From: Myxococcales bacterium
GTDB lineage: Bacteria > Myxococcota_A > Polyangia > Polyangiales > Polyangiaceae
Direction: 5' to 3'
DNA: 64,000 nt
NCBI GenBank assembly: GCA_947473045.1
Contig: CANJCO010000008.1
Coordinates: 1 to 64,000, forward strand
The notes beneath the pieces were generated by a model. That model saw only the letters and a program-made list of their open reading frames with translations, was not told the DNA's origin and made no database searches. Shown piece by piece: positions 29,630 to 51,005 of the stretch (position 1 is the first letter of the stretch; every line of letters begins with the position of its first letter). The position numbers were made by a program, and so were the translations under genes.

Positions 29630-30802
29630 TCAATAGCCGTCTGCGGCGGGGGCGGCCACGCGGGGCGCCGGGGCAGCTTTCTTTGCGGCAGATTGGGGTG
29701 TCGCCGCGTCGAGCTCAGTCTGCGCGCGATCGGCGTAAGCGGGTACGGACAGCAGCTTCGACAGGCGCGCACGCGCCAGCGTTGAGTTCCCGATTTCACG
29801 GTAGCAGCGGCCTGCATCGAGGGTCGCTTCGTATCCGGCCGTTGACCCGCCCGCTCGGCCTGACACCTGATCAAAGCGGGACACCGCCGCTTCGCAGCCC
29901 CGCCCTTCGCGCACCGACCGTGCCGCCCAAAGCGCTGCATTCGCATCCGCAGACGAAAGCGCGTCGAAAATGCGGGTCGCCTCGTCGAATCGTCTGGAGC
30001 GGTATGCGCTCATCCCGCTCGAAAAGTCTGCCTGCGGGTCGGCCGGTGCGGCGGTCTTGCCGACGCTGTCCGGCGCGGCGAAGGCGCTGCCCGAAGCGCC
30101 TTGGGCTCGCATCGCGCGCGCCTCCGCTGCTGCCTGCGATTGCGGCGCAGCGGCGGGAGCTGAGTTGGCGGCGGACTTCGCCTCTTCGGATCGGTCGAGC
30201 TGTTGGGGCGCGAGGTCTCCGGTTGCCATCTCCGCCTTCCGCGTCGCCGCGGAAGCGGACGTGGCGGCCGGGCTGGCTGCGGACGGCGGAGAAGGCGCGA
30301 GCGCCGCCCCGCCGCGTGCAGACTCGAGGGTCCCGTGGGCCGCAGCGCCCGTTGACTCGTCGAGTCTCGCCTCCGCAGCGCCGGGAGCGACTGCTGCCGC
30401 CGCGGGAGCGCCTTCGGCTCGCACGCGGACCGACACCGGCGAGCTTGCGTCGCGCCGCAAGAAGATGAAGCTTGAGCCGATCGCGAGCATGAAAAGCGCC
30501 GCCATCGCGGTCTGCGGTCGCATGGCCCAGTCTGCGGCCCACGAAACGACGCGTCCTGCCCGGGAGCGGATCGGGACAACCTTTTCGGCCTCCCTCGCAG
30601 CGGCAAATATCTTCTCTTCGAGATCTGGTGGCGGAGCGACCATCTGCAGTACGGCCGCCTCGCGCGTCGCCTGAAGCCCGCTCAGCATGGCCGCACACCG
30701 CTCGCAGCCGGACGCATGGCGCCGGGCGCCCGCGCTGGTCAGTTCGTCGAGCTCGCCGTACAGCAAGTCGAGGAGGTTGGCTTCGAACTTCTCGCAGTCC
30801 AT
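29630..30802 (-). CDS. zf-HC2 anti-sigma factor with periplasmic TPR-like domain
   Basis: The 390-residue product has an N-terminal zinc-binding anti-sigma domain with H29-x3-C33-x2-C36 and Cys3. A single membrane span lies at about 97-115, followed by a long Ala/Pro-rich spacer. The C-terminal domain (about 255-390) has TPR-like helices: FSSGMSAYRSRRFDEATRIF and DAGRCYREIGNSTLARARL. ZAS domains bind and silence the partner ECF factor until the outer part senses a signal. A TPR output domain outside the membrane suggests that the signal is a protein interaction. It follows the sigma gene by 58 bases. Confidence 0.88.
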   Translation of the reverse strand: MDCEKFEANLLDLLYGELDELTSAGARRHASGCERCAAMLSGLQATREAAVLQMVAPPPDLEEKIFAAAREAEKVVPIRSRAGRVVSWAADWAMRPQTAMAALFMLAIGSSFIFLRRDASSPVSVRVRAEGAPAAAAVAPGAAEARLDESTGAAAHGTLESARGGAALAPSPPSAASPAATSASAATRKAEMATGDLAPQQLDRSEEAKSAANSAPAAAPQSQAAAEARAMRAQGASGSAFAAPDSVGKTAAPADPQADFSSGMSAYRSRRFDEATRIFDALSSADANAALWAARSVREGRGCEAAVSRFDQVSGRAGGSTAGYEATLDAGRCYREIGNSTLARARLSKLLSVPAYADRAQTELDAATPQSAAKKAAPAPRVAAPAADGY

Positions 30803-30860: not shown

Positions 30861-31469
30861 CTACTTGAGCGCGCGGGAATACTCCTCGTATTCCGCCAGC
30901 GCGGCTTGAAGTCGCTCGAGCGCGTAGCGCATGCGACTTTTTACGGTATTTTCGGGCACGCCGGTCACCTCCGCGATTTCCTTGAACGGCAAGTTCGCCA
31001 CCTCGCGCAGCAAGAAGACCTCTCTCTGGTCGTCGGGGAGCGCCTCGACCGCGCGCTCGATCTGCGCTCGCATCTCGTTCGTCCCGGCCTCGCGCTCCAC
31101 GTTCGCCCGCGCGTCCGCAGTCACTTCGCCGAGCGTCGGTCCGTCGCTGCTGTCGCGGGAGCGCGCCTGGTCGAGCGACGGGTGCTTGCGCAGCGCGCTC
31201 CGTCGCATCTGGTCGATACAGAGGTTGCGCGCGATGCTGTAGAGCCAGGTCGAAAAGCGGGCCTCGTGCTTGAAGTCCTGGGCCTTCTGCACGACTCGCA
31301 GAAACGCCTCCTGGACGACGTCTTGAGCGACCGACGGGACGCGCAGCTGCCGCAGCGCGAAGTTGTAGAGCGGCCCCTGATGCCGCCTCACGATCGCGAC
31401 GAACGCGGTCCGATCTCCGCGCTGATACCGGAGCATGAGCGCTTCGTCGGTGCTCGGCTGCTCGGTCAC
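30861..31469 (-). CDS. ECF-type RNA polymerase sigma factor
   Basis: The product has 202 residues. Region 2 runs from about residue 19 to 92 (QGPLYNFALRQL, DVVQEAFLRVVQK, FSTWLYSIARNLCIDQMRR) and region 4 from about 135 to 192 (ALPDDQREVFLLREV, FKEIAEVTGVPENTVKSRM). There is no region 1.1 or 3, as in group 4 factors. The start is a GTG at 31469. The next gene is its anti-sigma factor. It faces away from the Glt-like operon across a 488-base gap, so it could regulate itself and possibly that operon. Confidence 0.93.
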   Translation of the reverse strand: MTEQPSTDEALMLRYQRGDRTAFVAIVRRHQGPLYNFALRQLRVPSVAQDVVQEAFLRVVQKAQDFKHEARFSTWLYSIARNLCIDQMRRSALRKHPSLDQARSRDSSDGPTLGEVTADARANVEREAGTNEMRAQIERAVEALPDDQREVFLLREVANLPFKEIAEVTGVPENTVKSRMRYALERLQAALAEYEEYSRALK

Positions 31470-31957: not shown

Positions 31958-32857
31958 ATGAAAGGTCACTCGATGCGTCACGCCGCCCGTCTTTCGCGCA
32001 CGTCCCGCTTCTTTGCCGCCGGCACTGCTGCGCTGGCCATACCGCTCGCCGTGTCGCTGTCGGGCGTCGCGCTGGGGCAGGCGAAGGCCGATGGAGGGGC
32101 GGTCGAGGTTGCAGCGACAACGACGGCTCCGGCGAGCGGGCCCGATGCCGCCGTGCCCGCCGCCAGCGCAAGCGACGCAGGCGCGCCTTCCGCCAGCGCA
32201 TCCGCCGCCGAGGCTGGAGCGCCGGTCGTTGCGCCGCCAGCGGTCGCGTCACCCGATTCCGGCATGGATGGCGCGACCTATACTGTGCGGCTGCGCGATC
32301 TCGAGGCGCGCGTCGACGAGCTCAAAGACCAGATCCGGCGCAGCCACAATCGCCTCTCAATGCTGAGCGACACGATCCTCAGCGGCGGGTTGGCCGGCTC
32401 TCGCGCTGAAATCGAGTTCGCGAACGAAATGTCGAGCGCGTTCAGGCTCATCAAGGGGATCTTCATCGTGGACGGGGCGCCGCAATACAGCCGCTCGGAC
32501 GAAACCGGCACACTCGCCGACCAGAAACAGATCCCGGTATACTCGGGCTCCGTACCGCCGGGGGACCACACGATTCAGGCGCTGCTCACGTTCCAGGGCA
32601 ACGGATACGGCGTGTTCACGTATCTGCGTGGCTACAAGTTCGAGGTCAAGTCGACGCACTCGTTTACCGCGGTCGAAGGCAAGACGCTCACGCTGACCGC
32701 CGTCGCCTACGAGCAGGGCGGCGTCACCACCGCGCTGCAGGATCGCCCCAAGGTCGAGTGGCGCGAGAAGGTTCAGCCCATCACGGTCGGCGCATCCGCA
32801 GCGCAACCCGCTGCACCGGCGGGGGCGCCTGAGCAGGGCGGCGGGGGCGGCAAGTGA
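31958..32857 (+). CDS. Exported coiled-coil protein, first gene of the Glt-like operon
   Basis: The product has about 299 residues with a signal peptide ending near GVALGQA, a long Ala/Ser/Asp/Pro-rich linker to about residue 95, a short coiled coil (YTVRLRDLEARVDELKDQIR, about 103-140), a beta-rich domain with VPPGDHTIQALLTFQGNGYG and FTYLRGYKFEVKS, and a Gly-rich end. It is probably periplasmic. No enzyme motif is present. I used the ATG at 31958 with GGAG upstream; the ATG at 31973 is an alternative. Its stop overlaps the GTG of the next gene by 4 bases. Confidence 0.7.
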   Translation: MKGHSMRHAARLSRTSRFFAAGTAALAIPLAVSLSGVALGQAKADGGAVEVAATTTAPASGPDAAVPAASASDAGAPSASASAAEAGAPVVAPPAVASPDSGMDGATYTVRLRDLEARVDELKDQIRRSHNRLSMLSDTILSGGLAGSRAEIEFANEMSSAFRLIKGIFIVDGAPQYSRSDETGTLADQKQIPVYSGSVPPGDHTIQALLTFQGNGYGVFTYLRGYKFEVKSTHSFTAVEGKTLTLTAVAYEQGGVTTALQDRPKVEWREKVQPITVGASAAQPAAPAGAPEQGGGGGK

Positions 32858-35271
32858 GACTTCCCCGAGCGCGCAGCGCTTCGGCGCTGCTGCTCGTGAT
32901 GCTCGCGGCGGGGCAGGCCAACGCGGGAGTCGACGAGCATATCAACTCGGCGCAGAGTGAGGTCGCAAACGTTGCGCGGGAAGCGAGCGGCGTACAAGCC
33001 GTGATCGAAAAGACCCGCAGCGAACGGACGACCGTCGAGCAACGCCTCGCCAACGGCGAGTTGCTCTACCGCACGAAAGACTACGATCGGGCTGAAGTCG
33101 TTCTCTCTGAAGTCATCGAGGCCTATCCCGATACTCCCAATTACGTAGACGCGCTCTGGCTTCGAGGCGAGGTGTTCTACGCTTCGAAGCAGTTCCTGTC
33201 GGCGCGCCGTGATTATCGCGAGATCGTTACCCACGGCGCCGAGCGCCGATTCCAGCCCTACGTCGGCAAGGCGCTGGCCCGCCTCGTCGACGTGAGCGTG
33301 CGCCTCGACGACGTCGCGCTTCTCGACGACGTCTTCAAAAATCTCGGACTCGTGCCGCCCTCGCTCGTCGATGCAGCGCTCACGTACGCAGAGGGCAAAG
33401 CGAACTATCTTCGTCGCGATTACGCCTTGGCGAATACCAAGTTCGCGGCAGTCGCGGCCGGTGGCTCCTATACGCACCAGGCACGCTATTATCAGGGCCT
33501 CGTCTCGATGAAGCAGGCGCGATCGGCCCCCGTTTCATCCGCAGCGTCAGCACCTGCGACGGCAGCGGCCGATTATAAGCTCGCCATCGAAGCGTTTCGG
33601 CAAGTCACCGTGCTTCCGCCCGACAGCGACGAGCACAAACACGTCATCGACCTGGCCTGGATGGCCATCGGTCGCCTCGCCTACGAAATGGAGCAATACG
33701 ACCTCGCGAAGGACTCCTACGCGAAGGTCAGCCGTGATTCGCCTGAGTTCGACACCATGCTCTACGAGTTGGCATGGGTCTACGTGCGTATGGGAGACGT
33801 TCAACACGCCGAGCGCACGCTCGAAGTACTCGCGGTCGCCGACCCGGACTCGGAATTTATCGCTGACGGGACCCTGCTGCGCGCGGACTTGCTCCTGCGA
33901 ACGGGCGCCTTCGACAAAGCGCTGCAGCTCTATCAGTCGATTCGCGATCAGTACGACCCGCTCAAGGTGAAGGTCGAGACGTTTCTCGATTCCAACAAGG
34001 ACGTCGCTGTCTATTACGACAAGCTCTCCAAGCAGGAACTCGACGCGCTCGACCAGACGCAAGCGCTGCCGCCGCTGGCCTTGCGATGGGCGCGCGACGC
34101 CGAAGACGGTCCGCTTGCCTTCACCATCATCGATGACATCGGACGATGTAAGAAATTCATCAAAGAATCCGAAATTCTCATCGAGAAGCTCAACGCGCTA
34201 TCGCAGGCATCGAACCGCGTTCGGGCGTTCCCTGAGCTCCTCGTCGGCGAGCAGCTCGCGCTCGGCTTGATCAATCGCCTGTCGCTGGCTCGCGTCGAGA
34301 TCGCCAAAGGCCTCGATGGCGAGGAGCCCGCTGAGCTCGGCGGCGAGATCGGCAACTGGCGCCAGCAGCGACGTTCGCTCATGTCGGCGGTCGGTGCGCT
34401 CCCGTCGAACTCCGCGGAATTCAGCGAGCGCGACGACGTCGGCACCAAGCAGTGGAACACGCTGTCACAGAATCTTACGCGCTCGAATCTCGAAGTCGAT
34501 CAGCTGCAGGCCGTGGTCAACGGGCTGCGGCGCATGCTGCGGGAAGACGCCCAGCGCGGGGTCGCGCGATCGCCGCAGGATTTGAAGCGTTTCAACGACG
34601 AAATCGACGACAACGAGCGAACGCTCCGCGACTTTCGCGAGCAGGTCGTCGTACTCCGGCGACACATCGATGTAGGGCGCGCCCAGATCGGTCTCGGCGA
34701 CAAGCGCTATCAGGACGATGCTCAATACCGCGCTTCATTTCGCGATGTGCTCGACCACGAAGTCGCAGCGGCTGCTGCCGGGCAGGGGGGCCCCGACGCA
34801 CAGTCGTACGCAAAGCGCGTGCAGGGCATCCTCACGCAGGCGCGTGCCCAGGAAGACGCTCTCTCGGAACAGTTTATGGCCCTTGAGCGACAGGTCGACG
34901 GAAAGACAGTGGAGCTGCAACGAAAAATCGACGCTGAGTCCGCCAACATCGCTCGCTTCAAGTCCACGCTCGGCGCCTATGACGACGAGGCGCGTGACCT
35001 GGTGGGCCACGTCGCCCAGCGCAACATCACCATCGTTCGCGACAAGCTGCGAAGCATCGTGCTTCGCGCGGACGTGGGAGTGACCGAGCAGGCCTGGGAA
35101 GTTCGCGAGGAAGAGCTCGATCGGGTGCGGAACCTCCAGACCGAGCGGTCTCGCGAGGAGCAGCTGCTCGACGAGGAATTGAAAGAGGTCCTGGACGACT
35201 CCGCCGACCCCGGCGCAGCAAGGTCGGGCGGAAACCAGTCGAACACGGGCGCCGGCGCCCCGTCGAAGTGA
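32854..35271 (+). CDS. Exported TPR and coiled-coil protein of the Glt-like operon
   Basis: The 805-residue product has a signal peptide ending in AGQANA. TPR-like repeats cover about residues 60-370 (ANGELLYRTKDYDRAEVVL, VDALWLRGEVFYASKQFL, MLYELAWVYVRMGDVQHAER), and long coiled coils cover about 505-770, such as FNDEIDDNERTLRDFREQVV and ALERQVDGKTVELQRKIDAE. It is probably a periplasmic scaffold. In Myxococcus the gliding and sporulation clusters contain comparable TPR proteins ahead of GltD/NfsD; equating it with one of them is inference. It starts within a GTGA overlap with the upstream gene. Confidence 0.75.
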   Translation: MRLPRARSASALLLVMLAAGQANAGVDEHINSAQSEVANVAREASGVQAVIEKTRSERTTVEQRLANGELLYRTKDYDRAEVVLSEVIEAYPDTPNYVDALWLRGEVFYASKQFLSARRDYREIVTHGAERRFQPYVGKALARLVDVSVRLDDVALLDDVFKNLGLVPPSLVDAALTYAEGKANYLRRDYALANTKFAAVAAGGSYTHQARYYQGLVSMKQARSAPVSSAASAPATAAADYKLAIEAFRQVTVLPPDSDEHKHVIDLAWMAIGRLAYEMEQYDLAKDSYAKVSRDSPEFDTMLYELAWVYVRMGDVQHAERTLEVLAVADPDSEFIADGTLLRADLLLRTGAFDKALQLYQSIRDQYDPLKVKVETFLDSNKDVAVYYDKLSKQELDALDQTQALPPLALRWARDAEDGPLAFTIIDDIGRCKKFIKESEILIEKLNALSQASNRVRAFPELLVGEQLALGLINRLSLARVEIAKGLDGEEPAELGGEIGNWRQQRRSLMSAVGALPSNSAEFSERDDVGTKQWNTLSQNLTRSNLEVDQLQAVVNGLRRMLREDAQRGVARSPQDLKRFNDEIDDNERTLRDFREQVVVLRRHIDVGRAQIGLGDKRYQDDAQYRASFRDVLDHEVAAAAAGQGGPDAQSYAKRVQGILTQARAQEDALSEQFMALERQVDGKTVELQRKIDAESANIARFKSTLGAYDDEARDLVGHVAQRNITIVRDKLRSIVLRADVGVTEQAWEVREEELDRVRNLQTERSREEQLLDEELKEVLDDSADPGAARSGGNQSNTGAGAPSK

Positions 35272-35293
35272 AGTTGAGGAGCGGACGGATTCG

Positions 35294-38200
35294 ATGAGAG
35301 AACGCACCTCAAAGTGGCTGGTTGTGCTTGGCGCGACCGCGATCGGGCTGGGCGTATCGGCCAATGGCGCGGCTCAGCCACGCGCAGCCGACGCTGGCGC
35401 TCCGTCGCCCGACGGCGGCAGCGTGACCCCGGCGGTGACCGCGGACGCGGGCGCGCCGCCAGCGCCCTCGGCTGCCGCAGCTTCGCCCGCCGCCGTCGCG
35501 GATGGTGGTTCTGGCGCCGCTGCCGACCCCGATGCCGGCCCGTCGTTGGCTCCCCCCCCGACCTTCAAAAAGAACCCTCCGCCGCCGGCGCCGACTCCAG
35601 AGCAGGTTGCTGCCCTGGCCACGCTGCAGGGCGCAGCAGACGCTTACGAGCGCAGCGCGCGCGACTACCGCGACACCGTGACTGCCATTATCAAGCTTCA
35701 CTACGAGGCGAAGAAGCAGGATATTCTCTCGGGGCTCGACAAGGAGATTGTTACCGAGAAAGTCGAACTTCGCAAAGCGCGCGACGTGGCGATCGCCCGA
35801 CTCGAAGAGTTCGTGACCAATTACTCGGGTAAGGTCGACTCGCCCGACCCGGAAACTCCCGACGCGATGTACCGTCTCGCGGCGCTCTACGAGGAGCGCG
35901 CGCGCTCCGACGAAGCGTCAGACGACCTCTCTCTGGGACTGAAGCCCGCGATCGCCCTTTACAAACGCGTCATCAACGAGTTTCCCAGGTACCGGGAGCT
36001 CGCGGGCATATTTTACTATCTTGGCCACGCCTACAACGACTCGGCGCGCACTGAAGAAGCGCAGCAGGTCTGGCGATCGCTCGTCTGCCATAATAAATAC
36101 CCATATCCAACCCCGGCCGATCCGAAGAACCCTCTGGTCGACAGCATCATGCCGATGCCCCAGGACGGCACGAAAGAGACGTGGCGGGCTTGGCGTGACC
36201 GTTGGTCGCGACCGGGAATGGACCCGAAGAAACTCCCGCGCAACGAGGAGACGACCTTCGTTGACCCGTTCACAGATGAATGCCAGATGGTCGCGCAGCC
36301 TTCGCTCAGGCCCGGCGAAGACCCGAAGTTCGTCCCCGAAATCTGGTGGCAAATCGGCAACTGGGAGTTCGACCAGCTCGACGCGCGCGCAGGCGTGACC
36401 GATGACGAGCCCTACGGAGTCTGGAATCTCAACCGCGCATCGAGCGCCTACAGCCGGGCGCTAAAGTTCAAAAAGCCGCCGCTTTACTCGGTCGCGCTCT
36501 ACAAATTCGCGTGGACGCTCTTCAAGCAGCAGCGCTACGACGCCTCGACCCGCGAGTGGGTCAAGCTCCTGCTCCACACCGACGACCTCGAGAAGTTGCA
36601 GGGAAGCGCGAATGTCGCGGACTTCCGCGCGGAGGCTTACACGTACATCGCCGGGTCGCTGACCAACGTGGACTTCCTCGGCCCGGCCCCGGAAGAGCCG
36701 TACATTCAGCGCCCGGACATCGTCGACGCTGAGCCCGACCCCCAGAAGGCAGAGCGGGCGCTGCACGTGGCGATTGATCGCGTGAAAGACCCTTCGCTTG
36801 TTCCGCAGGACAAGCCTTGGACTATCGAGATTTACAAGTCGCTGGCCGGAGAGTTTCGGAGCCTCAATCAGTTCCAGAACGCGATTGAGGTCTACGAGAT
36901 GATCCTCGCCAAGTGGCCGATGGACCCAACCGCGCCCGAAGTTCAAAATGAGGTCGCGCTCACCTACGACCAGATGAACGTCACCGGCAAGCGGTCCCAG
37001 CAGGATCGCGACGCCCTGGCCGCAAAGGCGCTCCAGGCGCGCACCGCCCTTGCCAGCTACATCGGCAACACGCCGTGGGTTGACGCAAACAAGGAGAACC
37101 CCGCGGCGATTCAGGCCGCTGAGCGTCTCGTACGCGGCGGATTGCGCCAGGCCGCGAGCGCTCACACGAACAACGGCAAGCAGCTGCTCGTGCTCGCGAC
37201 GCAGGCCGCCAATGAGCGCGAACGCGACGACGACCTCACGCGCTCTTTGTCTGAATACAAGCTCGCCGCGCTCGGCTGGTACGGCTACCTGCGCCAGGAC
37301 GAAAACGCCTCCGACGCCTACGAGAGCCGGTTTTGGTTGGCCGACGCGCGCAACAAGCAACTTCGCATTCAAGTGCTGATGCACTCGCGGAAAAAGGATC
37401 AGTTTCCCGAGCCCACCTCGAAGGAAATCGATGACGCGAAGTCCGCAGCGATCGACGTGCGCGACTCGAATGAAGACGACAAGTATCTTGATGTCGTGGC
37501 GCAGTTTGTCGTCGAGGAGTCTGATATTGCGGTCGACCTTGACTACGATCGATACCAGGAGAGCAAGGGCTCGCAGGGCTACCCCAGGCGCGTTGAGCTC
37601 GAGTCCACGGGCGAGGGCGACAACATGCGGGTCAAGCAGGTGCCGGTTCCGCCGCATCTCCTCGCCGCGATGAAGTCGCGTGATGAGTACGTTCAGCGTG
37701 TGCCTCCGGAAAAAGACGCCGCCACCGACAAGGGAGTAAAGAACGCTACCGTTTTTCAGTACGACGTCGCCGACACGTACTTCGTTTACGGCGATTTCGC
37801 GAACGCGCGGGCCCGGTTTGAGCCGCTCTACAAAGACCACTGCGGCAAGGATGAATACGGATACCGCGCGTGGGAAAAGCTGATCTCGATGGCCGCGAAG
37901 TCGCGCGATGCAGAGCGGGCGCGCCAGCTCGCGGAGGCCGAAAAGGCCCACTCTTGCGCAGTCAGCGATTCGCAGCGCTCCGGCGCGAGCGGACTCACGG
38001 GCCCGATCTTCACGGAGGCCTCGTTCGTCGACGCCGACCGGAAATTCATCGAGGCCTGCGGTCGCGACATCAAGGCCGACGCAGACCGATGCGATCCGGT
38101 AACGCCCGACCGCATCCCGAAGTGGAAGGACGCAGCCAAGCTCTACAACGACGCTCTCGAGAAGGCGCCATCCTACCGATATGCGCCGAAGGCGGCGATG

Positions 38201-39724
38201 CGCGCCGCGTATTCGTACAAGCAGCTGGGCGACTACAATAGCGCGATCAAAGCGTATGACCGCTTCATCTCTGAATACGGCAAAGAAGAGCTGCTGCGGA
38301 ATCTCGACAAAGGCGACAGCAAGAAGGGCACGCCGCCTGACCCGAAGCAGTACGCCGAGCGCCTTCAGTATCTGAACGTCGCCTACGACGAATTGGGCAC
38401 GACGTATTACTCGTTCTTCAACTACCCAAAGGCGGCCGACACTTTTGAGAAGGTCGCCCAGATCGCCAGGTTCGCTGAGGACAAGCGGAAGACGAGCGCC
38501 AAGAACGCGATGGTGCTTTTCAACGCCATCGGTCAGCGCGAGCGCATGAAGGGCATGTACAACATCGTCGTTGGCCTGCGTCCTTCTGCCGAAGAGAAGG
38601 CGAACTACGACTACCTCGTGGCCAGCTTTGACTTCAAACAATGGAGTCCGACCGGGGGCGATGGCGGCGGTAACCGTCAGTCGCGCGTCGACGCGGAACA
38701 GGCCATGGCGCAGTACTACGGCGCGAACAAGGGCAACACTGCGGCCGCCAAATATGCCCTCGAGGCAGCGTGGCGCGTGGCAAAGATGAAGCAGAGTGCA
38801 GGTGATCCGGCCTACCACTCGTGGTTTTCGAACACGATCGAGGCCTGGCGCTTTCTCGACGCCCACGCGTCGACGGGCAAGGACGGCAAAGAGAGCGAAA
38901 TGCCGCCGTTTACCGATTACGGCGCAGAGGCTGAGTTCACGCTTCTCGACGAGGAAATTCGCGAGAAGTTCGACTACGAGACTGGCCACTCCCGCTACGT
39001 GACGTTCTCGGCAGCCGATATCTTTGGCCTCGATACGAAGACCGGCAAGAAGGTAAAAGACGGCAAATATGACGTCGACGCCAAGCTCGCCGATGCCTAC
39101 GACGTCAAGCTCAAGCACGTGGTTGACACCTATCGATCGCTTGAATTCGTTCCCGCCGCGCTCGCTCGTCGAGGTTCGCTCTATGACACGCTGCGAACGG
39201 GGCTGTATGCCTGCGCAGGTTCGACGTTCCACCTCTTCTCGACCGAGCAGGAAAATATCCTGAAGGCGATGGTGAACAGCGGGCGCGATGATCTCATCGA
39301 CAAGGCCGACCTCATCAAGGGCGCCGTCAAGGATGGCTGGAAATACAAGCGCGGGCACGAGATGCAGGCCGCTGACGTCGTGATGGCGCGTTACTACGCG
39401 CAGGCCGTGCATCTGGCCCGCACCTACAACGTTCGGAATCCGGCGGTCACTCGCGCCATTGCGCGACTGGCGTTTTTCACGGATTCCGGAACGGAGCTCG
39501 GCGAGGGTCCCAAGCCCTGCTACTCCGACGATATCGCCAACCCGATCGACAAGGTCAAGCAGTGCGGCATTGGGCCTTTCGTGAGCGGAACGACCGACCC
39601 GACCGACAAAACCGGGATTCGTAAGTTGCAGTACAGTTCTGGCATGTACGTTCAGATGCGCCCCGGTTTGCCGGCGGCGCTTCCCGAGAATGGCGCGGCG
39701 GCTCCGCTCCCGGTGGCACCATGA
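35294..39724 (+). CDS. Giant exported TPR protein, GltD/NfsD-like
   Basis: The product has 1476 residues. A signal peptide (about 1-27) is followed by an Ala/Pro/Asp/Gly-rich linker to about residue 100. Helical TPR-like repeats then run over most of the length, e.g. DAMYRLAALYEERARSDEAS, IFYYLGHAYNDSARTEEAQQ, AVALYKFAWTLFKQQRYD-type units and YAPKAAMRAAYSYKQLGDYN. Its size, repeats and place directly before a TPR lipoprotein, a small periplasmic protein and a GltG-like protein match GltD/NfsD of the Myxococcus gliding (Agl-Glt) and spore-coat (Nfs) machines. That assignment rests on order and architecture, not on a computed alignment. It overlaps the next gene by 4 bases (ATGA). Confidence 0.75.
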   Translation: MRERTSKWLVVLGATAIGLGVSANGAAQPRAADAGAPSPDGGSVTPAVTADAGAPPAPSAAAASPAAVADGGSGAAADPDAGPSLAPPPTFKKNPPPPAPTPEQVAALATLQGAADAYERSARDYRDTVTAIIKLHYEAKKQDILSGLDKEIVTEKVELRKARDVAIARLEEFVTNYSGKVDSPDPETPDAMYRLAALYEERARSDEASDDLSLGLKPAIALYKRVINEFPRYRELAGIFYYLGHAYNDSARTEEAQQVWRSLVCHNKYPYPTPADPKNPLVDSIMPMPQDGTKETWRAWRDRWSRPGMDPKKLPRNEETTFVDPFTDECQMVAQPSLRPGEDPKFVPEIWWQIGNWEFDQLDARAGVTDDEPYGVWNLNRASSAYSRALKFKKPPLYSVALYKFAWTLFKQQRYDASTREWVKLLLHTDDLEKLQGSANVADFRAEAYTYIAGSLTNVDFLGPAPEEPYIQRPDIVDAEPDPQKAERALHVAIDRVKDPSLVPQDKPWTIEIYKSLAGEFRSLNQFQNAIEVYEMILAKWPMDPTAPEVQNEVALTYDQMNVTGKRSQQDRDALAAKALQARTALASYIGNTPWVDANKENPAAIQAAERLVRGGLRQAASAHTNNGKQLLVLATQAANERERDDDLTRSLSEYKLAALGWYGYLRQDENASDAYESRFWLADARNKQLRIQVLMHSRKKDQFPEPTSKEIDDAKSAAIDVRDSNEDDKYLDVVAQFVVEESDIAVDLDYDRYQESKGSQGYPRRVELESTGEGDNMRVKQVPVPPHLLAAMKSRDEYVQRVPPEKDAATDKGVKNATVFQYDVADTYFVYGDFANARARFEPLYKDHCGKDEYGYRAWEKLISMAAKSRDAERARQLAEAEKAHSCAVSDSQRSGASGLTGPIFTEASFVDADRKFIEACGRDIKADADRCDPVTPDRIPKWKDAAKLYNDALEKAPSYRYAPKAAMRAAYSYKQLGDYNSAIKAYDRFISEYGKEELLRNLDKGDSKKGTPPDPKQYAERLQYLNVAYDELGTTYYSFFNYPKAADTFEKVAQIARFAEDKRKTSAKNAMVLFNAIGQRERMKGMYNIVVGLRPSAEEKANYDYLVASFDFKQWSPTGGDGGGNRQSRVDAEQAMAQYYGANKGNTAAAKYALEAAWRVAKMKQSAGDPAYHSWFSNTIEAWRFLDAHASTGKDGKESEMPPFTDYGAEAEFTLLDEEIREKFDYETGHSRYVTFSAADIFGLDTKTGKKVKDGKYDVDAKLADAYDVKLKHVVDTYRSLEFVPAALARRGSLYDTLRTGLYACAGSTFHLFSTEQENILKAMVNSGRDDLIDKADLIKGAVKDGWKYKRGHEMQAADVVMARYYAQAVHLARTYNVRNPAVTRAIARLAFFTDSGTELGEGPKPCYSDDIANPIDKVKQCGIGPFVSGTTDPTDKTGIRKLQYSSGMYVQMRPGLPAALPENGAAAPLPVAP

Positions 39725-41022
39725 GAAAATCTCTCATCCGCACGTCCGCCTTGGCCGGCATGGCTGCCGTGGCGATTGCCTGTGGCGGCGACGACAGCAA
39801 GGCGCCCAATTCGCCCGTGGACGTCATTGACTCGGGCGTCCCCGCGGATCCCGTCGCGGTCCCCGCCGCGAGTGACACGGCGCCGGAGCCTGCCGCTCCC
39901 GCCCCTGAGCAGCACGCTGAGCTGTCGGCAGATGCGAAGTCGGCGTACGCGGACGGCTTCAAGTCGTGGACGGCGGGCGACCTCGCGACGGCCAAAGCCA
40001 AATTCCTCGAGGCGACCAAGAAAGACCCGAAGTCGGCCACGGCGTTTTATTCGCTGGGCTGCGTGCTCGAGCGAATGGGCGATAACGCCGGTGCTCAGGC
40101 CGCCTACAAGAGCGCTGTTGGAGCGAAATCCGATTACGTTTTGGCTATGGGCGCCTACGCCATCAGCCTCGCGCGCACGGGCAATACGGGCGAGGCCACG
40201 TCGTTTCTCACTGACAAGCGTGCGAAGACCCCGAACTCGGCGCCTCTCGCAAACTATCTGGCGGAGGTTCGCTCGCTCGCGAAAGACAGCGCGGGCGCTC
40301 AACAGGCTGCGCAAGATGCTCTGCGGATCGACTCGAATTTCAAGGATGCAATGGTGACGATCGCACGCGATCATCACCGCAGCGGTCGCGAGGACCTCGC
40401 GAAGTATGCGCTCACGGCTGTGCTCGACGGCTTTGGGCAGTCGAACCCTGCCCGGGACCCCGACAACGCTGAGGCTCACCTGCTGCGCGGCTTGATCGAG
40501 CGATCGGCGGGTCAGCGAATCGCTGCGATGAAGGACTTCGAATTTGCGCGCGCGAAGCGCCCCGACCTTATCGAGGCGCTCATCCAGATTGGCGCGATGA
40601 AGCTCGAGTCGGGGGACGCCACCGGCGCGCAACCGCTCCTCGAGGCTGCCGTCCGGTATGCTCCCAACCAAGCGCTCGGTCACTCGAATCTGGGCGACTG
40701 CTACCGGCTTCAGGGACGGCTCGCGGAGGCGAAGAAGGAGTTCGACACCGCTCTCGCTCAGGACGCCACGCTGTCGGCCGCGCACTATGCCATGGGGCTC
40801 ATGTATCTGAACGCGGCGTCGTATCCGGGCATGTCCGCGACCGACCAGGTCGGAGCCGCGATTCGCGAGCTCAATACGTACAAGCAGATGCGGGGCCCCA
40901 AGGCGGCACCGGGCGTCAGCGACGACATTGACGACTTGATCACGCGGGCGAACAAGAAGAAGGAAGACCTGAATCCCGCTCCTGCGGCACCCGCGGCGTC
41001 CGCGCCCCCGAAGAAAAAGTAG
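39721..41022 (+). CDS. TPR lipoprotein, GltE/NfsE-like
   Basis: The 433-residue product has a lipobox AVAIAC with Cys21, so it should be anchored in the outer or inner membrane. TPR units run from about residue 75 to 370, for example YADGFKSWTAGDLATAKAKF, FYSLGCVLERMGDNAGAQAA, and HSNLGDCYRLQGRLAEAKKE. The end is Pro/Lys-rich. In Myxococcus GltE is a TPR lipoprotein encoded right after GltD, and the arrangement here is the same. It overlaps the upstream gene by 4 bases, and 47 bases separate it from the next start. Confidence 0.78.
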   Translation: MRKSLIRTSALAGMAAVAIACGGDDSKAPNSPVDVIDSGVPADPVAVPAASDTAPEPAAPAPEQHAELSADAKSAYADGFKSWTAGDLATAKAKFLEATKKDPKSATAFYSLGCVLERMGDNAGAQAAYKSAVGAKSDYVLAMGAYAISLARTGNTGEATSFLTDKRAKTPNSAPLANYLAEVRSLAKDSAGAQQAAQDALRIDSNFKDAMVTIARDHHRSGREDLAKYALTAVLDGFGQSNPARDPDNAEAHLLRGLIERSAGQRIAAMKDFEFARAKRPDLIEALIQIGAMKLESGDATGAQPLLEAAVRYAPNQALGHSNLGDCYRLQGRLAEAKKEFDTALAQDATLSAAHYAMGLMYLNAASYPGMSATDQVGAAIRELNTYKQMRGPKAAPGVSDDIDDLITRANKKKEDLNPAPAAPAASAPPKKK

Positions 41023-41069
41023 CGTCGACTTTGCCGACGCGGCAACGTGTTTACAAGAGGGTTCCCATC

Positions 41070-41309
41070 ATGCGCTTAGCCACAGCATTCCTCGCCGCCA
41101 GCGCCATCACGTTCGGCGGTTCTGCGTTTGCCCAGGAAAAGGGCGGCGGGCGCGTGATCACGATTAGCGAGGTCACGATCGTTGGTCGGGTTCAGAAGCC
41201 GATCGCTTCCGTCGACGTGAACAAGATTCAGCCGAAGCTAACGCTCGCGGAATTGAAGCAACCCTTTCTCGATCGCATCGAGGCCGCGACGCGCAACGAG
41301 CCGTTCTGA
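41070..41309 (+). CDS. Small periplasmic protein in the GltF/NfsF position
   Basis: The product has 79 residues with a signal peptide cut after about GSAFAQ, leaving a mature part of about 57 residues. The mature part carries a beta-like ITISEVTIVGRVQKPIA segment and a helical LKQPFLDRIEAATR end. No known motif is visible. Small exported proteins lie between the E and G genes of the Myxococcus glt and nfs clusters, so this is the likely counterpart. The ATG at 41070 has AAGAGGG upstream; the in-frame codon at 41031 lacks a signal-peptide-like start. Confidence 0.65.
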   Translation: MRLATAFLAASAITFGGSAFAQEKGGGRVITISEVTIVGRVQKPIASVDVNKIQPKLTLAELKQPFLDRIEAATRNEPF

Positions 41310-41337
41310 GCGTTGCTGCACTTCCGGGCGGGGCAAC

Positions 41338-41964
41338 GTGATTCTGGCGTTCGTAGCTGTCGGCGTGACCGGCGTGTGCGTGTGGGCAAGCTCTCGGCGT
41401 CTCGCGTTTGCCGTCGCTCCGACAGCGTTTGATCCTGTTGTGCTGCTGCGCACACTTCGCGGCGCCGATGGGCGCGGCGCGATCGATCTCGCAATCGGCG
41501 CGCTCGACGAGCAAGCCTGGGAGCGCTCGTTGCTCATCGCCCTGGCGGCGCCGATCGGGCAGCGAGCGGCCTTGTTGAACGAAGCACTCGGAGAACTCGA
41601 TCTGCTCGTTCATCGCTGGGCGCGTGTCCCGCGGGTCTGCGCGAGCGTGGCCTCGACGAGCTCATTCATGCTGGCAAGCATGGCGCTCAGAGCGGGGCTC
41701 ACCGCCTCGGGGGATGTGGCCGATGCGGGCTTCGCCAGCTACTTGAACGCCACAATGCTCGACGCGGTCAACGTCGCCGCGGTCGGAGTTGCGGGCGCCG
41801 CCTTTTGCATCGCCGCTCAGTACAGGGCGCGGCGTGCAGCGAAGACCCACCTTGAGGCCGCCGACAAATTCGTCGCGGCGCTCGAAGCGGCGCCTGAGGT
41901 CTCGCTCGAATCCGGCAGCGCTTCACCTCACGCGGAAGAAATGTCAGCGGAGTCGCGTCCGTGA
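41338..41964 (+). CDS. Divergent MotA/TolQ/ExbB-like membrane protein
   Basis: The 208-residue product shows three membrane segments: about 1-17, 98-119 and 141-163. A cytoplasmic loop of about 75 residues lies between the first two, and a charged helix follows the third, the layout of TolQ/ExbB proton-channel subunits. The last segment, MLDAVNVAAVGVAGAAFCIA followed by a basic helix, has the rhythm of the family's terminal EALxxTAxGLxxAIPA span. The usual Pro and Gly of the second span are not kept, so it is a distant relative or a degenerate copy. No TolR/ExbD partner is in the window. It lies between the GltF-like and GltG-like genes; the start is a GTG. Confidence 0.6.
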   Translation: MILAFVAVGVTGVCVWASSRRLAFAVAPTAFDPVVLLRTLRGADGRGAIDLAIGALDEQAWERSLLIALAAPIGQRAALLNEALGELDLLVHRWARVPRVCASVASTSSFMLASMALRAGLTASGDVADAGFASYLNATMLDAVNVAAVGVAGAAFCIAAQYRARRAAKTHLEAADKFVAALEAAPEVSLESGSASPHAEEMSAESRP

Positions 41965-41983
41965 CTTCCGCTCGCGGAATTCT

Positions 41984-42101
41984 TGCTGTACTGTTCTTGG
42001 GTACAGCAGTGTCTCCTCGGGAACAATCTCCCGTCGGGGCAGTCTCATCTGGCTGACGGCCGCTTTGCGCGGCCCGAAGATCTTCCAGAAAGGCAGTCTC
42101 A
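41984..42101 (+). other. Two hairpins and a direct repeat before the GltG-like gene
   Basis: In the 140-base gap, TGCTGTAC (41984-41991) pairs perfectly with GTACAGCA (42001-42008), and GGCCGC (42058-42063) pairs with GCGGCC (42069-42074). GGCAGTCTCA occurs at 42038-42047 and 42092-42101. Neither hairpin is followed by a T-run, so they look more like mRNA processing or control elements than terminators. Confidence 0.4.
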
Positions 42102-42104
42102 CTC

Positions 42105-43499
42105 ATGTCGCAGATGCAAACGGGGCCGGGCGCACAGCAGGGTGGACGTCCCGGCCAGATGACCTCGGTCATGCGCGCAGTAGCGCAGCAGGCTGGTCCC
42201 AAGGTGCTCCGCATTGGCTTGGTGCAGTCGGGCAGGGTCATCGAAGAGCGCATCATCAAGCAGCGCACGAGCGTGACGATCGGCCAGAGCGAGAAGGCGA
42301 TGTTCGTCGTTCCGACGCCGAACGTGCCCGCCCAGTTCAAGCTGTTTGAGCTCATCGGGAGCGACTACTACCTCAATTTCATCGACGGCATGTCGGGGCG
42401 CGTCGCGCTCCAGACGGGCATCAGCGAGCTGTCGGCGCTGAAAGGTCAGGCTCGCCGGGTCGGGCCGGCGTACCAGGTTCGCCTGACAGAAGATGCGCGC
42501 GGCAAGGTGGTCGTTGGCGACACCACGTTCCTGTTCCAGTTCGTTTCTCCGCCGCCGCCTGCGCCCCGGCCGCAGCTCCCGCTGTCGGTAAAGGGCGGGC
42601 TCGCGAGCCAAATCGACTGGACCCTCACGATCATCGCGGCGTTCAGCTTCATGATGCACTTCGGATTCATCGGGGCGATGTATTCCGACTGGATGGATCA
42701 GGTGGTCAACGACGACATATCGGCGCAGGGCCTGACCGATATGCTCAACAAGATCCCGCCGCCGGTCATCGAGCAGAAGCCTGAAGTCGCCGCGACATCC
42801 ACGGCGACATCCACGGCGGCGGCGCCCACGGCCACCGGGCCGAGCACGCCTGCTCCCACGAAGGCGGGTCCCATAAGCGAGAAGCAGGCCGCGGCGCTTA
42901 CGCAGCAGGCCGAAAACATGCAGATGCAGATGCTCGCAGCTTTCGGCGGAACGACGTCGGTGGCGGGGGCTCTGACCCGCGGGGACGTGCCCGTCACCGA
43001 CCTTTCTGGCGTCGCGCAATCGAGCGCCGGCGTCAGCAGCACGGGCGGCGATCTCAAACTCGCGTCCGGCGGTGGCGGACTTGCCAACGTGGGTCATGGT
43101 GGTGGCGGCCTCGGTGCGCTCGGAGCGACGGGCGGCGGCGGCAGCGGCACAACAGTGGCCGCTCGCGAGGTCAAAGGCCCGACAGGCGACGCTCAAATGG
43201 GCCCGATTGCGGGCGGCGGCGCCGTTAGCGATGCCGATCGCGTCATTGCCGGTCTGCGGCCGAGCTTCAAGAGCTGCTACAACAAGGGCTTGGCGAACGA
43301 CCCGAGCATGAGCGGGAAAATCGTCCTCGCGATCAAGGTTCAGCCGAACGGCGACGTCGAAAGCGTCAGCAAGGCCGGCGGGTCGGGTTTGTCAGCAGAA
43401 GTCGAGCAGTGCATCATCGGTCGCGCCAAGCGAGCGAGCTTCAGCGCCGGCGGCGGCGCGACGCTTCAGGTTCCGGTGACGTTCGTTCAGCAGAAGTAG
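42105..43499 (+). CDS. GltG/NfsG-like trans-envelope protein
   Basis: The 464-residue product has an N-terminal cytoplasmic FHA-like region (about 33-148, with RTSVTIGQSEKAMFVVP), a membrane span at about 172-194, a Pro/Ala/Thr linker, a Gly-rich segment (about 320-350), and a C-terminal AgmX/PglI domain (about 374-462) with the paired cysteines C391 and C436 in SCYNKGL and EQCIIG. This TonB-like domain reaches across the periplasm. The same order FHA-span-AgmX/PglI is found in GltG and NfsG of Myxococcus, which link the inner-membrane motor to outer parts. Its own SD is AGAAAGG before the ATG at 42105. A 140-base gap with two hairpins precedes it. Confidence 0.85.
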   Translation: MSQMQTGPGAQQGGRPGQMTSVMRAVAQQAGPKVLRIGLVQSGRVIEERIIKQRTSVTIGQSEKAMFVVPTPNVPAQFKLFELIGSDYYLNFIDGMSGRVALQTGISELSALKGQARRVGPAYQVRLTEDARGKVVVGDTTFLFQFVSPPPPAPRPQLPLSVKGGLASQIDWTLTIIAAFSFMMHFGFIGAMYSDWMDQVVNDDISAQGLTDMLNKIPPPVIEQKPEVAATSTATSTAAAPTATGPSTPAPTKAGPISEKQAAALTQQAENMQMQMLAAFGGTTSVAGALTRGDVPVTDLSGVAQSSAGVSSTGGDLKLASGGGGLANVGHGGGGLGALGATGGGGSGTTVAAREVKGPTGDAQMGPIAGGGAVSDADRVIAGLRPSFKSCYNKGLANDPSMSGKIVLAIKVQPNGDVESVSKAGGSGLSAEVEQCIIGRAKRASFSAGGGATLQVPVTFVQQK

Positions 43500-43603
43500 C
43501 TGCGGCGGTGAATGCAGGCCTTGGCCCAGGCATCACAACTATCGTCACAGGTAACAAGGACGCCGTTCGCGACAATCTGCTCCCTCGCAGCCTCTGCTGC
43601 GCG

Positions 43604-43632
43604 TTGACAGTGCGCGAGTGGGCGGGTAGGGT
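43604..43632 (+). promoter_or_regulatory. Sigma-70 type promoter after the GltG-like gene
   Basis: A perfect TTGACA (43604-43609) and TAGGGT (43627-43632) are separated by 17 bases. The transcript would begin near 43640, about 30 bases before the next start codon. It marks a new transcription unit for the coiled-coil, beta-barrel and Wza-like genes. Confidence 0.5.
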
Positions 43633-43670
43633 GCAATGATGCAGCGGTGTAATCTGGCTCGGGGGCACGC

Positions 43671-44261
43671 GTGATGCGCGTCAGCACCAAAGTAAGGTGG
43701 TTCGCAGTGCTCGGCGTCGTGATCGCCGCCAGCGTTCCCGCCATCGCACAAACCGCGGCGTCTACGCCTGCTGCGGCCTCAGACGCGCAGGTCGGTTTTC
43801 AGCGGAAAGCGCAGCTCTCGCCGCAGCAGCAAGTGGCCGAGGGGCTCAACCAGCTGTCGAGCATGGAGCAGGCAGCCGGTTCGATCCGGCGCCAGCTCAG
43901 CGACGCCCGCGCCCAGCGCGATGTCGTCAAGACGCTGTGTTTGAACGACAAGCTTTCTCAGGTAGACGTTGCCATTCGTTCGGCGAAAGATCGCCAGCAG
44001 TCGCTACAGCTGGCTGCCGGGCGCAATGACTCCGAGCTTAGCACCCATGAGTTCACGATTATGACGGTGCTGCGCCAGCGCGGCGAGCAGCTCACCGCCG
44101 AGGCGAATCAATGCATCGGCGAGGAGGGCACCGTCATCGGCGAGACCTCGAGCAAGGTGACGGTTGACCCGAGTCTTCCGCCCGACCCCGAGACCGTCAC
44201 GGCCCCGATCGACCCCGGTCTATTTAGCCAACCTCCCGTTTGCACGTCGTGCTCGCGGTAG
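43671..44261 (+). CDS. Small exported coiled-coil protein, function unknown
   Basis: The product has 196 residues. A signal peptide ends near VPAIAQ, a helical coiled-coil part covers about residues 45-150 (ALSxMEQAAGSIRRQLSDAR-type heptads, one Cys in KTLCLNDK), and the C-terminus is Pro/Thr-rich with the ending CTSCSR. The ATG at 43674, one codon later, is an equally good start. It lies directly downstream of a good promoter and 74 bases before the outer-membrane barrel gene, so it may serve the same exporter as a periplasmic partner. Confidence 0.65.
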   Translation: MMRVSTKVRWFAVLGVVIAASVPAIAQTAASTPAAASDAQVGFQRKAQLSPQQQVAEGLNQLSSMEQAAGSIRRQLSDARAQRDVVKTLCLNDKLSQVDVAIRSAKDRQQSLQLAAGRNDSELSTHEFTIMTVLRQRGEQLTAEANQCIGEEGTVIGETSSKVTVDPSLPPDPETVTAPIDPGLFSQPPVCTSCSR

Positions 44262-44335
44262 TGTATTGACCCGCGTCATTGTCGTCCGAGCAGTTGACCA
44301 AGCGGCGTTCGGTGCCGCCTCTTACCTACGTGCTC

Positions 44336-45745
44336 ATGTCCAATCGTAATCGTGTTTTCACTGTCTCGCTGCTGGTTGCCGCGGGGTTATTCGCGCTTCC
44401 CGCCCCCGCAAGGGCGCAGGGTTGGCTCGGTGACCGCAGGTTCGCGGAGGGCATGGGCTATCGCGTCGGCGATTTTGAGTTGCATCCCGGCCTTGGCGCG
44501 GAAGCCGGCTACGACAGCAACTGGTTTCAGCGCTCCCAGGGGACCGGCTTCGTAAACTCCTCGCCGGGCGCTCCCGTCGCTTCTGCTGGCATTTTGCGGC
44601 TGACGCCTTCGCTGACGATCTCGACGCTGACCGCTCAGCGAAAAGAAGGCGACGTCAACGCGACTCCACCAAAGATGACGTTTCGCGCTGGCCTGTCGGG
44701 CACGTATCGCGCGTTCCTCGGGTCGACTGAGATATCGAACCAGAACGGCATCGACGGCCTGTCGGGCGACCTCTTCGCCAAGGCCGATATTAACCCGCAA
44801 CGTCCCGTCACGGTCAGCCTTCACGGTCAGTACACGCGCGTCGTCTCCCCGAACTCTTCGGGAAACCCCGACGCTTCGTTCAACCGAAATGATCTCGGCG
44901 CGGGCGCCGACCTGCTGCTCACGCCGAATAGCGGAACGCTCTCGTGGAAGCTTGGTTACGCGCTCCGCGCCTCTGTGCTCGATAACTCGGCAGCGGCGCC
45001 CTTCAACAATATCAGCAACAATCTCGCGACGCGCGGCGAGTGGCGTTTTCGACCGAAGACGTCGATTTTTTACGAGGCCGGAACTTCGTTTCTGACCTTC
45101 ACGCAGCGCACGCAGGCGTTCAACCAACTGAACAACGCCACGCCGTTCCGCACCAAGCTCGGGCTGAACGGCCTCGTCACCTCCCGGTTTGCGTTTCTCG
45201 CGTCTGCGGGGTGGGGAGCGAGCTTCGTCGATACCAGCTCAAACGCGCTGGTGCAGCAATACGACAGCGTCATCGGTCAGGCTGAAGCCAAGTTCTTCTT
45301 GACGGCCAATCCCGGGATGGACGCGCCCAATTCGGTTGGACTTTCGATCTCGTCGCTGGCGCTGGGCTTCACGCGCGATTTTCAGACCAGCTATCTGACG
45401 ACCTATTACGGCACCGACCGCGGCTACGCCAAGCTGTCGTATTTTTTCGCGGGCAGGGCGCTCGTGTCGCTTGAGGGCGGCGTCGGTGCGGTCGAATATC
45501 CGAAGGTTTTCTTCAACGGCGGCGTCGGCGCGATCAACCCTTTCACCGATATCCGCGCGGATGCCACGCTGTTCGGAGAATACCGCTTTACCAATTCGCT
45601 CGCTCTGAACACGACCCTGAAGTTCATCAGCGAGTCGGGGAGCCAGCAGTTGCCCGTGGCGGGAGCCAACGGCACGGTTGGCGGGCAGTACGACCTCAGC
45701 TACCTCCGCTTCGAGGGGTATCTGGGTCTCCGCTGGTTTATGTGA
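44336..45745 (+). CDS. Outer-membrane beta-barrel protein, Wzp-like candidate
   Basis: The 469-residue product has a signal peptide ending PAPARAQ. The rest alternates short amphipathic beta strands and Gly/Asn turns, e.g. FELHPGLGAEAGYDSNWFQR, FRAGLSGTYRAFLGSTEISN and TVSLHGQYTRVVSP, and it ends in a strand with terminal aromatic, LRFEGYLGLRWFM, typical for barrels inserted by the Bam complex. About 16-18 strands are plausible. In Myxococcus, WzpX/WzpS/WzpB barrels pair with short Wza lipoproteins for polysaccharide export. The next gene here is such a Wza-like lipoprotein, so this is the likely Wzp partner. The ATG at 44336 was chosen because it begins the signal peptide. Confidence 0.72.
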   Translation: MSNRNRVFTVSLLVAAGLFALPAPARAQGWLGDRRFAEGMGYRVGDFELHPGLGAEAGYDSNWFQRSQGTGFVNSSPGAPVASAGILRLTPSLTISTLTAQRKEGDVNATPPKMTFRAGLSGTYRAFLGSTEISNQNGIDGLSGDLFAKADINPQRPVTVSLHGQYTRVVSPNSSGNPDASFNRNDLGAGADLLLTPNSGTLSWKLGYALRASVLDNSAAAPFNNISNNLATRGEWRFRPKTSIFYEAGTSFLTFTQRTQAFNQLNNATPFRTKLGLNGLVTSRFAFLASAGWGASFVDTSSNALVQQYDSVIGQAEAKFFLTANPGMDAPNSVGLSISSLALGFTRDFQTSYLTTYYGTDRGYAKLSYFFAGRALVSLEGGVGAVEYPKVFFNGGVGAINPFTDIRADATLFGEYRFTNSLALNTTLKFISESGSQQLPVAGANGTVGGQYDLSYLRFEGYLGLRWFM

Positions 45746-45754
45746 GCCCGAACA

Positions 45755-45800
45755 GCGCGACGAGAGCGCGACAAGAGCGCGAGAAAACAGCGCGAATGGT
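45755..45800. repeat. Short direct repeats after the barrel gene
   Basis: The motif AGCGCGA occurs four times at about 11-13 base spacing in the 83-base gap between the barrel gene and the Wza-like gene. No hairpin with a T-run is formed. Function unknown. Confidence 0.5.
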
Positions 45801-45828
45801 GAGGGCACCGTCCGCTACTAACTCCCCG

Positions 45829-50974: not shown

Positions 50975-51005
50975 CGCCCGCGATCGTTGCAGGATGCGAG
51001 CAAAT

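Follow-up and report, generated by a model that had tools for sequence, protein, structure and literature searches.

The genome of a Myxococcales bacterium encodes a ten-gene operon that combines homologs of the Glt gliding and Nfs spore-coat machineries with a polysaccharide translocon and is orthologous to cluster G4 of Myxococcus xanthus. We consider it moderately probable that this operon encodes a third trans-envelope machine of the Glt/Nfs class, genetically joined to an n1-Wzp-OPX export module, driven by a motor and acting on polysaccharide. These observations suggest that the gene cluster is a powered machine handling surface polysaccharide, which would give a job to Myxococcus genes without one: the G4 and M2 motor clusters were reported in 2011–2013 without known function. 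G4, M2 and WzaB/WzpB are each already known; a search of the text of open-access papers found no statement joining the three.

Operon organization

The window, that is, the entire 64,000-nucleotide stretch analyzed here, comes from contig 8 of a 5.15-Mb, 138-contig genome. The operon comprises ten plus-strand genes, 31958 to 46422, in the order cc, GltC, GltD, GltE, GltF, Q, GltG, n1, Wzp, OPX (Table 1). A preliminary description of this DNA recognized the first seven ORFs, which indeed all lie on the plus strand between 31958 and 43499 in an order kept across the bacterial order, but placed the end of the cluster too early: the operon continues past GltG with n1, a WzpB-type barrel of the outer membrane and a short OPX of the WzaB type. 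The Glt-type gene order that it proposed (D-E-F-G) is real, except that the second gene is a GltC homolog, so that the order becomes C-D-E-F-(Q)-G. Likewise, of the start/stop overlaps that it described as joining the first three genes and the D/E pair, only those of cc with GltC (32854/32857) and of GltD with GltE (39721/39724) exist; GltC and GltD are 22 bp apart, with no overlap. The OPX start (ATG at 45829) was picked by homology within an ORF open from 45742.

Upstream of the operon, a divergent gene for an ECF sigma factor is followed by one for a zinc-finger anti-sigma-like protein with no Pfam match. The sigma factor is kept beside the operon in the window's bacterial order, with mglBA in this place in Myxococcus and relatives, and it is the probable regulator of the operon. 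Searches against Rfam gave no match in the window, promoter and terminator scans were uninformative or no better than chance, PHROGs held no match for cc, n1 or Q, and n1 belonged to no Pfam or PHROG family. Farther downstream, at 50793-54128 (+), the window contains an ORF of 1111 aa that encodes HEAT repeats and, at the C-terminus, a cyclic-nucleotide-binding domain.

Table 1 Genes of the operon and the divergent upstream pair
Gene product	Coordinates	Strand	Evidence and remarks
cc: secreted coiled-coil plus beta protein, 299 aa	31958..32857	+	operon-type marker; 41% identical to M. eversor cc; MXAN_1924 by gene order
GltC-like TPR periplasmic protein, 805 aa	32854..35271	+	NCBIfam gliding_GltC 4.4e-18 (best hit, below cut-off); blastp 3e-55 against Myxococcus ortholog
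GltD-like TPR periplasmic protein, 1476 aa	35294..39724	+	MXAN_1922 ortholog; blastp 8.5e-38 against same-position Myxococcus gene; 15-member family alignment
GltE-like TPR lipoprotein, 433 aa	39721..41022	+	NCBIfam gliding_GltE 2.4e-20; Myxococcus ortholog 1e-25; Cys after signal peptide
GltF-like small secreted protein, 79 aa	41070..41309	+	aligns with the genome's own canonical GltF, C-terminal motif in common; up to 82% identity to relatives
Q: degenerate AglR (TolQ/ExbB/MotA family) without ExbD partners, 208 aa	41338..41964	+	AglR profile match
GltG-like: FHA fold, TM helix, TonB/TolA-fold (AgmX/PglI) domain, 464 aa	42105..43499	+	NCBIfam, AlphaFold model plus Foldseek, tree
n1: secreted protein, 195 aa	43674..44261	+	Myxococcus ortholog 1e-18; MXAN_1917 by gene order
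Wzp: outer-membrane beta-barrel porin, OPX-partner type (WzpB ortholog), 469 aa	44336..45745	+	weak Pfam BBP2_2; blastp 2.6e-15 against the Myxococcus barrel assigned as WzpB
OPX: short polysaccharide export lipoprotein (WzaB ortholog), Poly_export plus SLBB, 197 aa	45829..46422	+	Pfam Poly_export 7.7e-20
ECF sigma factor, divergent	30861..31469	-	Pfam Sigma70_r2 2e-18; adjoins the operon in the window's bacterial order
Zinc-finger anti-sigma-like protein, downstream of the ECF factor	29630..30802	-	H-x3-C-x2-C motif; synteny with the ECF factor

A third paralogous type within the Glt/Nfs class

The assignment to a Glt/Nfs-like trans-envelope operon in the preliminary description is supported, and the homology to these machineries goes beyond generic TPR and TonB similarity: the top profile for GltC is that of GltC, the operon matches a Myxococcus operon one to one, and GltG is matched over its full length by NCBIfam gliding_GltG (2.5e-23; 82.5 bits against an equivalog cut-off of 650), as well as by the myxo_SS_tail profile above its cut-off. 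The NCBIfam matches of GltC, GltE and GltG all fall below the curated equivalog cut-offs, and GltE alone is not decisive for Glt homology because its best profile, outscoring gliding_GltE, is that of the generic TPR lipoprotein PrsT; nevertheless, homologs of GltC, GltD, GltE and GltG are present in one cluster. The AlphaFold model of GltG, searched with Foldseek, bears out the FHA-like/single-span/AgmX-PglI architecture noted earlier: a cytoplasmic FHA fold (FHA domains are the best PDB hits), a single TM helix at about 172-197, and a periplasmic C-terminus with the TonB/TolA fold. The TonB/TolA-like arm and the TM helix are strongly conserved and presumably are the force-receiving parts of the protein.

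In the GltG tree, the window and M. xanthus G4 are separated from GltG, NfsG and a third paralog with 100% support. NfsG, which was identified by inference as the second M. xanthus paralog in this tree, groups with GltG rather than with the GltG of the window, which thus lies outside the GltG clade. Elsewhere in the same genome, on contig 14 (L009 8210-19364), lies a canonical GltC-D-E-F-G operon, with a gene for a TPR lipoprotein after it; the GltG of this operon sits in the true GltG clade. No GltA/B/H barrels and no GltI/J/K were seen among the genes of the operon, in agreement with the preliminary description, which also noted the absence of AglRQS; motors of the AglRQS type are encoded on contig 2. 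Judging by the sequence comparisons, the operon is a third paralogous type of the Glt/Nfs class, neither glt nor nfs; orthology with either is rejected on the basis of the GltG tree.

Orthology with M. xanthus cluster G4 and spread of the operon

Apart from Q, each gene of the operon has one counterpart in an operon of Myxococcus eversor, and the order is the same; the Myxococcus block is mglB-mglA-cc-C-D-E-F-G-CNBD-n1-wzpB-wzaB. The assembly of M. xanthus AM003 is fragmented, with the operon on three contigs, and contiguity was taken from M. eversor and relatives; in AM003, mglB-mglA-cc-C-D-E share one contig, and another contig encodes a 421-aa barrel with an OPX starting 23 bp on, which matches the published geometry and 23 bp spacing of WzpB (MXAN_1916) and WzaB (MXAN_1915) (PMC9603273). 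The MXAN numbers were set by gene counts, with mglA as MXAN_1925 (PMC3441718), and by the WzpB/WzaB geometry: the genes of M. eversor, counted from mglA through wzaB, correspond exactly to MXAN_1925 to 1915 and make GltD MXAN_1922. MXAN_1922 is the gltD homolog of cluster G4, the function of which was reported as unknown in 2011, and a polar mutation in this gene leaves motility intact (PMC3169522). With an orthologous GltG and the same gene order up to wzpB-wzaB, the operon belongs to the G4 type. It can therefore no longer be placed outside the classic Myxococcus setting, as had been proposed, because M. xanthus itself carries the ortholog, G4, adjoining mglBA. The Myxococcus copies encode a cyclic-nucleotide-binding protein between GltG and n1 (L160 16353-16799).

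Relatives belonging to the window's bacterial order carry the entire block, cc through OPX, with its gene order unchanged, and cc was detected in 204 of 284 sampled genomes of the phylum. When named genomes were scanned, the operon was recovered from Myxococcus, Archangium, Citreicoccus and an Anaeromyxobacter assembly, and also from loci titled UBP6 or rumen bacterium. A locus titled Comamonas sp. KCTC 72670 (L196) contains a Myxococcus-like operon with an MglA identical to that of M. xanthus; this record probably is mislabelled or contaminated. Core complexes from outside Myxococcus that do not serve gliding have already been described by Luciano et al. 2011 (PMC3169522).

Linkage to a polysaccharide translocon

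The OPX family profile matches PDB 9n9a at 3e-68; the sequence of this structure is identical to residues 20-204 of M. xanthus WzaB, and the OPX of AM003, identical to it in turn, ranks first among the OPX matches of that genome, which number only three. The window's OPX has the features of the D1D2OPX/class 3 proteins, with PES and SLBB domains only, no C-terminal membrane helix and an adjoining barrel. A PDB sequence search with the Wzp barrel itself yielded only marginal matches to OmpA. We compared 77 non-redundant loci that include both GltD and GltG and extend at least 3 kb farther downstream. Wzp or OPX is encoded within 9 kb downstream of GltG on the same strand in 63 of them (both in 58); the export genes are missing downstream in the remaining 14, which counts against our main reading. 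In genome G192 (L236 9834-12613), n1-Wzp-OPX have been relocated as a group to a site apart from the Glt-like genes, and accordingly behave like a separable module. In M. xanthus, wzaB is needed for BPS, and wzaB mutants have swarm defects (PMC7310880); the gene has been treated as orphan-like (PMC9603273, PMC9601211, PMC7310880), and the main text of PMC9603273 makes no mention of glt or nfs. With a Wzp/OPX polysaccharide translocon at the end of the operon, the earlier suggestion that the machine may have a different job, such as one involving polysaccharide, gains weight.

Q and the ancestral in-operon motor

A complete AglR-AglQ-AglS motor is encoded between F and G in 28 of the 77 loci, 23 of which also have the export genes. 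The motor occupies this position in many other lineages, including loci titled UBP6 and rumen bacterium, some of them apparently outside Myxococcota; the motor genes are also absent from it in many other loci, and in the window's bacterial order, Q alone remains in the gap. Several observations tie Q to AglR. The two are collinear when Q is compared with the profile of the operon AglRs (hhalign 93%, E 3.4e-7), and the top Foldseek/PDB folds for the Q model are TolQ, MotA and ExbB, at weak E-values, the best being 0.05. Membership in the MotA/TolQ/ExbB family is therefore indicated by sequence-profile homology and fold, with Pfam MotA_ExbB matching 2 of 14 Q family members. As a motor component Q is deficient: it retains 11 of 58 AglR-invariant residues, does not show the conserved polar channel residues and ExbD/TolR partners expected of such a motor, and lies in an operon that encodes no ExbD. 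Q is detectable by tblastn only in near relatives, and elsewhere by position and profile; the nearest relatives are only about 43% identical in Q. Codon-position GC and the lower rate of change at codon position 2 fit a coding gene, and a random open frame is rejected on these grounds.

By profile and position, Q is a decayed AglR, the remnant of an ancestral three-gene motor from which the two ExbD genes have gone. The preliminary description took the TolQ-like gene for a new insertion; this is ruled out, the F-G gap holding the full motor in other lineages. Five loci (L199, L204, L205, L206 and L209), titled UBP6, rumen bacterium or Spirochaetales, contain within their first 6 kb an additional D-E-F-G set, which immediately precedes the full operon with its motor genes.

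A relocated motor

Contig 2 of the same genome (L132 5275-9770) encodes two complete, adjoining triads of the AglRQS type, arranged head to head or back to back, as in other genomes of the window's bacterial order. In the trees, one triad groups with the M. xanthus gliding motor (M1 type), which was recognized by its 245/162/194-aa proteins (lengths from PMC3169522). The other groups with the second M. xanthus motor, taken to be M2 by elimination, and is nested inside the operon AglRs (98-99% at key nodes); hence the relocated motor appears, by its phylogeny, to be of the M2 type.

The relocated motor is present in 13 of the 16 genomes with motor-less operons and in 1 of the 11 with motor-bearing operons (p 0.0003; about 0.04 after the window's bacterial order is collapsed to one lineage), and it is retained in nearly all examined genomes of this order. 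Two genomes of one sister genus of the same family (G005 and G108) yield no cc match and lack the relocated motor but keep the AglRQS type (M1). There are exceptions in both directions: the relocated motor was not found in three genomes with motor-less operons (G129, G057 and G028), the first two having an M1-type motor only, and conversely, G062 and G170 have a relocated motor without a cc match, and G130 has both motors. In M. xanthus, AglRQS serves both Glt and Nfs (PMC3858216). A third machine fits two published negatives, namely that the M2 AglR (MXAN_3003) does not bind GltG or NfsG (PMC3858216) and that gliding and sporulation do not require M2 (PMC3858216, PMC3169522). Most likely, the relocated motor on contig 2 drives the operon machine, a pairing that we infer from these distributions and trees.

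Proposed mechanism and alternatives

Homology, orthology, operon structure, the link to the export genes, the ancestral in-operon motor and the phylogeny of the relocated motor are all seen in the sequences; force, cargo and motor pairing are inferred. In the proposed mechanism, the inner-membrane protein GltG, which combines an FHA domain with a TonB-like arm in the periplasm, would take force from an AglRQS-type proton motor, and the periplasmic TPR proteins C, D and E, along with F and cc, would pass it on to the outer membrane. At this site, the machine may act on polysaccharide exiting the Wzp barrel and the OPX ring, to extrude, detach or move the polymer. The motor was ancestrally encoded between F and G, and a relocated motor of the same clade would have taken over in the window's lineage, where Q may or may not still play a part. 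Motility is intact in the MXAN_1922 mutant although wzaB mutants are swarm-defective, so either the MXAN_1922 insertion has no polar effect on wzaB or BPS export does not need the machine.

A motor-less scaffold, in which a static structure bridging the envelope would keep polysaccharide export aligned across the periplasm, with the motor lost and Q being a leftover or a plain GltG anchor, is an unlikely alternative. It would accommodate the absence or degeneration of the in-operon motor in the window's bacterial order and the absence of motor genes between F and G in many loci, and it has a precedent in the PgaA/BcsC synthase-dependent systems, where TPR proteins are scaffolds; yet, it is at odds with the strong conservation of the force-receiving elements in GltG and with the retention of the M2-type motor in nearly all examined genomes of the order but not in the genus that lacks the operon. 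That the shared, M1-type AglRQS motor drives the machine, as it does Nfs, with the M2 type serving something else, we regard as unlikely: the double use of AglRQS in M. xanthus and the two genomes that combine a motor-less operon with an M1-type motor speak for such sharing, but in the trees it is the M2 type rather than M1 that belongs with the in-operon motors, and G005 and G108 keep M1 in the absence of both the operon marker and M2.

Two further explanations concern the job of the machine rather than its power source. Wzp, OPX and n1 could be unrelated passengers of a Glt-like part that does other work, such as envelope maintenance or transport of surface proteins or lipids. The loci without nearby export genes, the separability of the modules in G192 and the lack of a motility phenotype in the MXAN_1922 mutant are compatible with this, but the linkage seen in 63 of 77 loci, both in Myxococcota and in records bearing the names of other groups, with strand and order unchanged, together with the scarcity of OPX matches in the M. 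xanthus genome, make it quite improbable. That the operon is the organism's true gliding (Glt) or spore-coat (Nfs) machine is extremely improbable: the common core order C-D-E-F-G is outweighed by the separate canonical operon on contig 14, which groups with GltG, by the missing GltA/B/H/I/J/K and unreached equivalog cut-offs, and by the normal gliding of the G4 mutant (PMC3169522).

Extending the motor-driven, polysaccharide-handling machine to the whole phylum is a more tentative proposal. An AglRQS-type motor, a Glt-type transducer and Wzp/OPX might form one unit; M. xanthus G4, M2 and wzpB-wzaB would then be united beside mglBA, BPS would be exported or moved by motor force, and Glt and Nfs would be specialized relatives. 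Conserved gene order and phylogeny would place G4, M2 and wzaB in one machine adjoining the cell-polarity switch mglBA. If this is true, motor-driven handling of secreted polysaccharide is an old, widespread trait, to which gliding and spore-coat assembly are specialized relatives.

Comparison with known systems

The closest counterpart is M. xanthus G4, cc-C-D-E-F-G-n1-wzp-opx, with the same order as the window; the differences are that the window has Q between F and G, lacks the cyclic-nucleotide-binding gene after G and has a divergent ECF sigma/anti-sigma pair upstream in place of mglBA. The Glt gliding machinery (GltA-K with AglRQS) shares with the window GltC-, D-, E-, F- and G-type proteins of matching domain layout, whereas the window's GltG lies in a separate clade, and its operon lacks GltA/B/H/I/J/K, ends in a polysaccharide translocon and probably is served by a motor of another clade. 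The Nfs spore-coat machinery (NfsA-H with AglRQS), a Glt-class transducer acting on exported Exo polysaccharide, offers a comparison in the way of working; the M. xanthus nfs locus is, by locus tag, apart from the exo export genes, whereas the machine and the translocon of the window form one operon. The WzaB-WzpB translocon of the BPS pathway, a short OPX with an adjacent barrel, is orthologous to the window's pair (PMC9603273, PMC9601211, PMC7310880). Finally, the AglRQS-type core complexes of other bacteria (Luciano 2011) have the Group B genes C, D, E and G plus R, Q and S in one region, as does this operon type; relative to these complexes, with the gammaproteobacterial and Geobacter loci outside the comparison, the operon adds GltF, cc and the export module.
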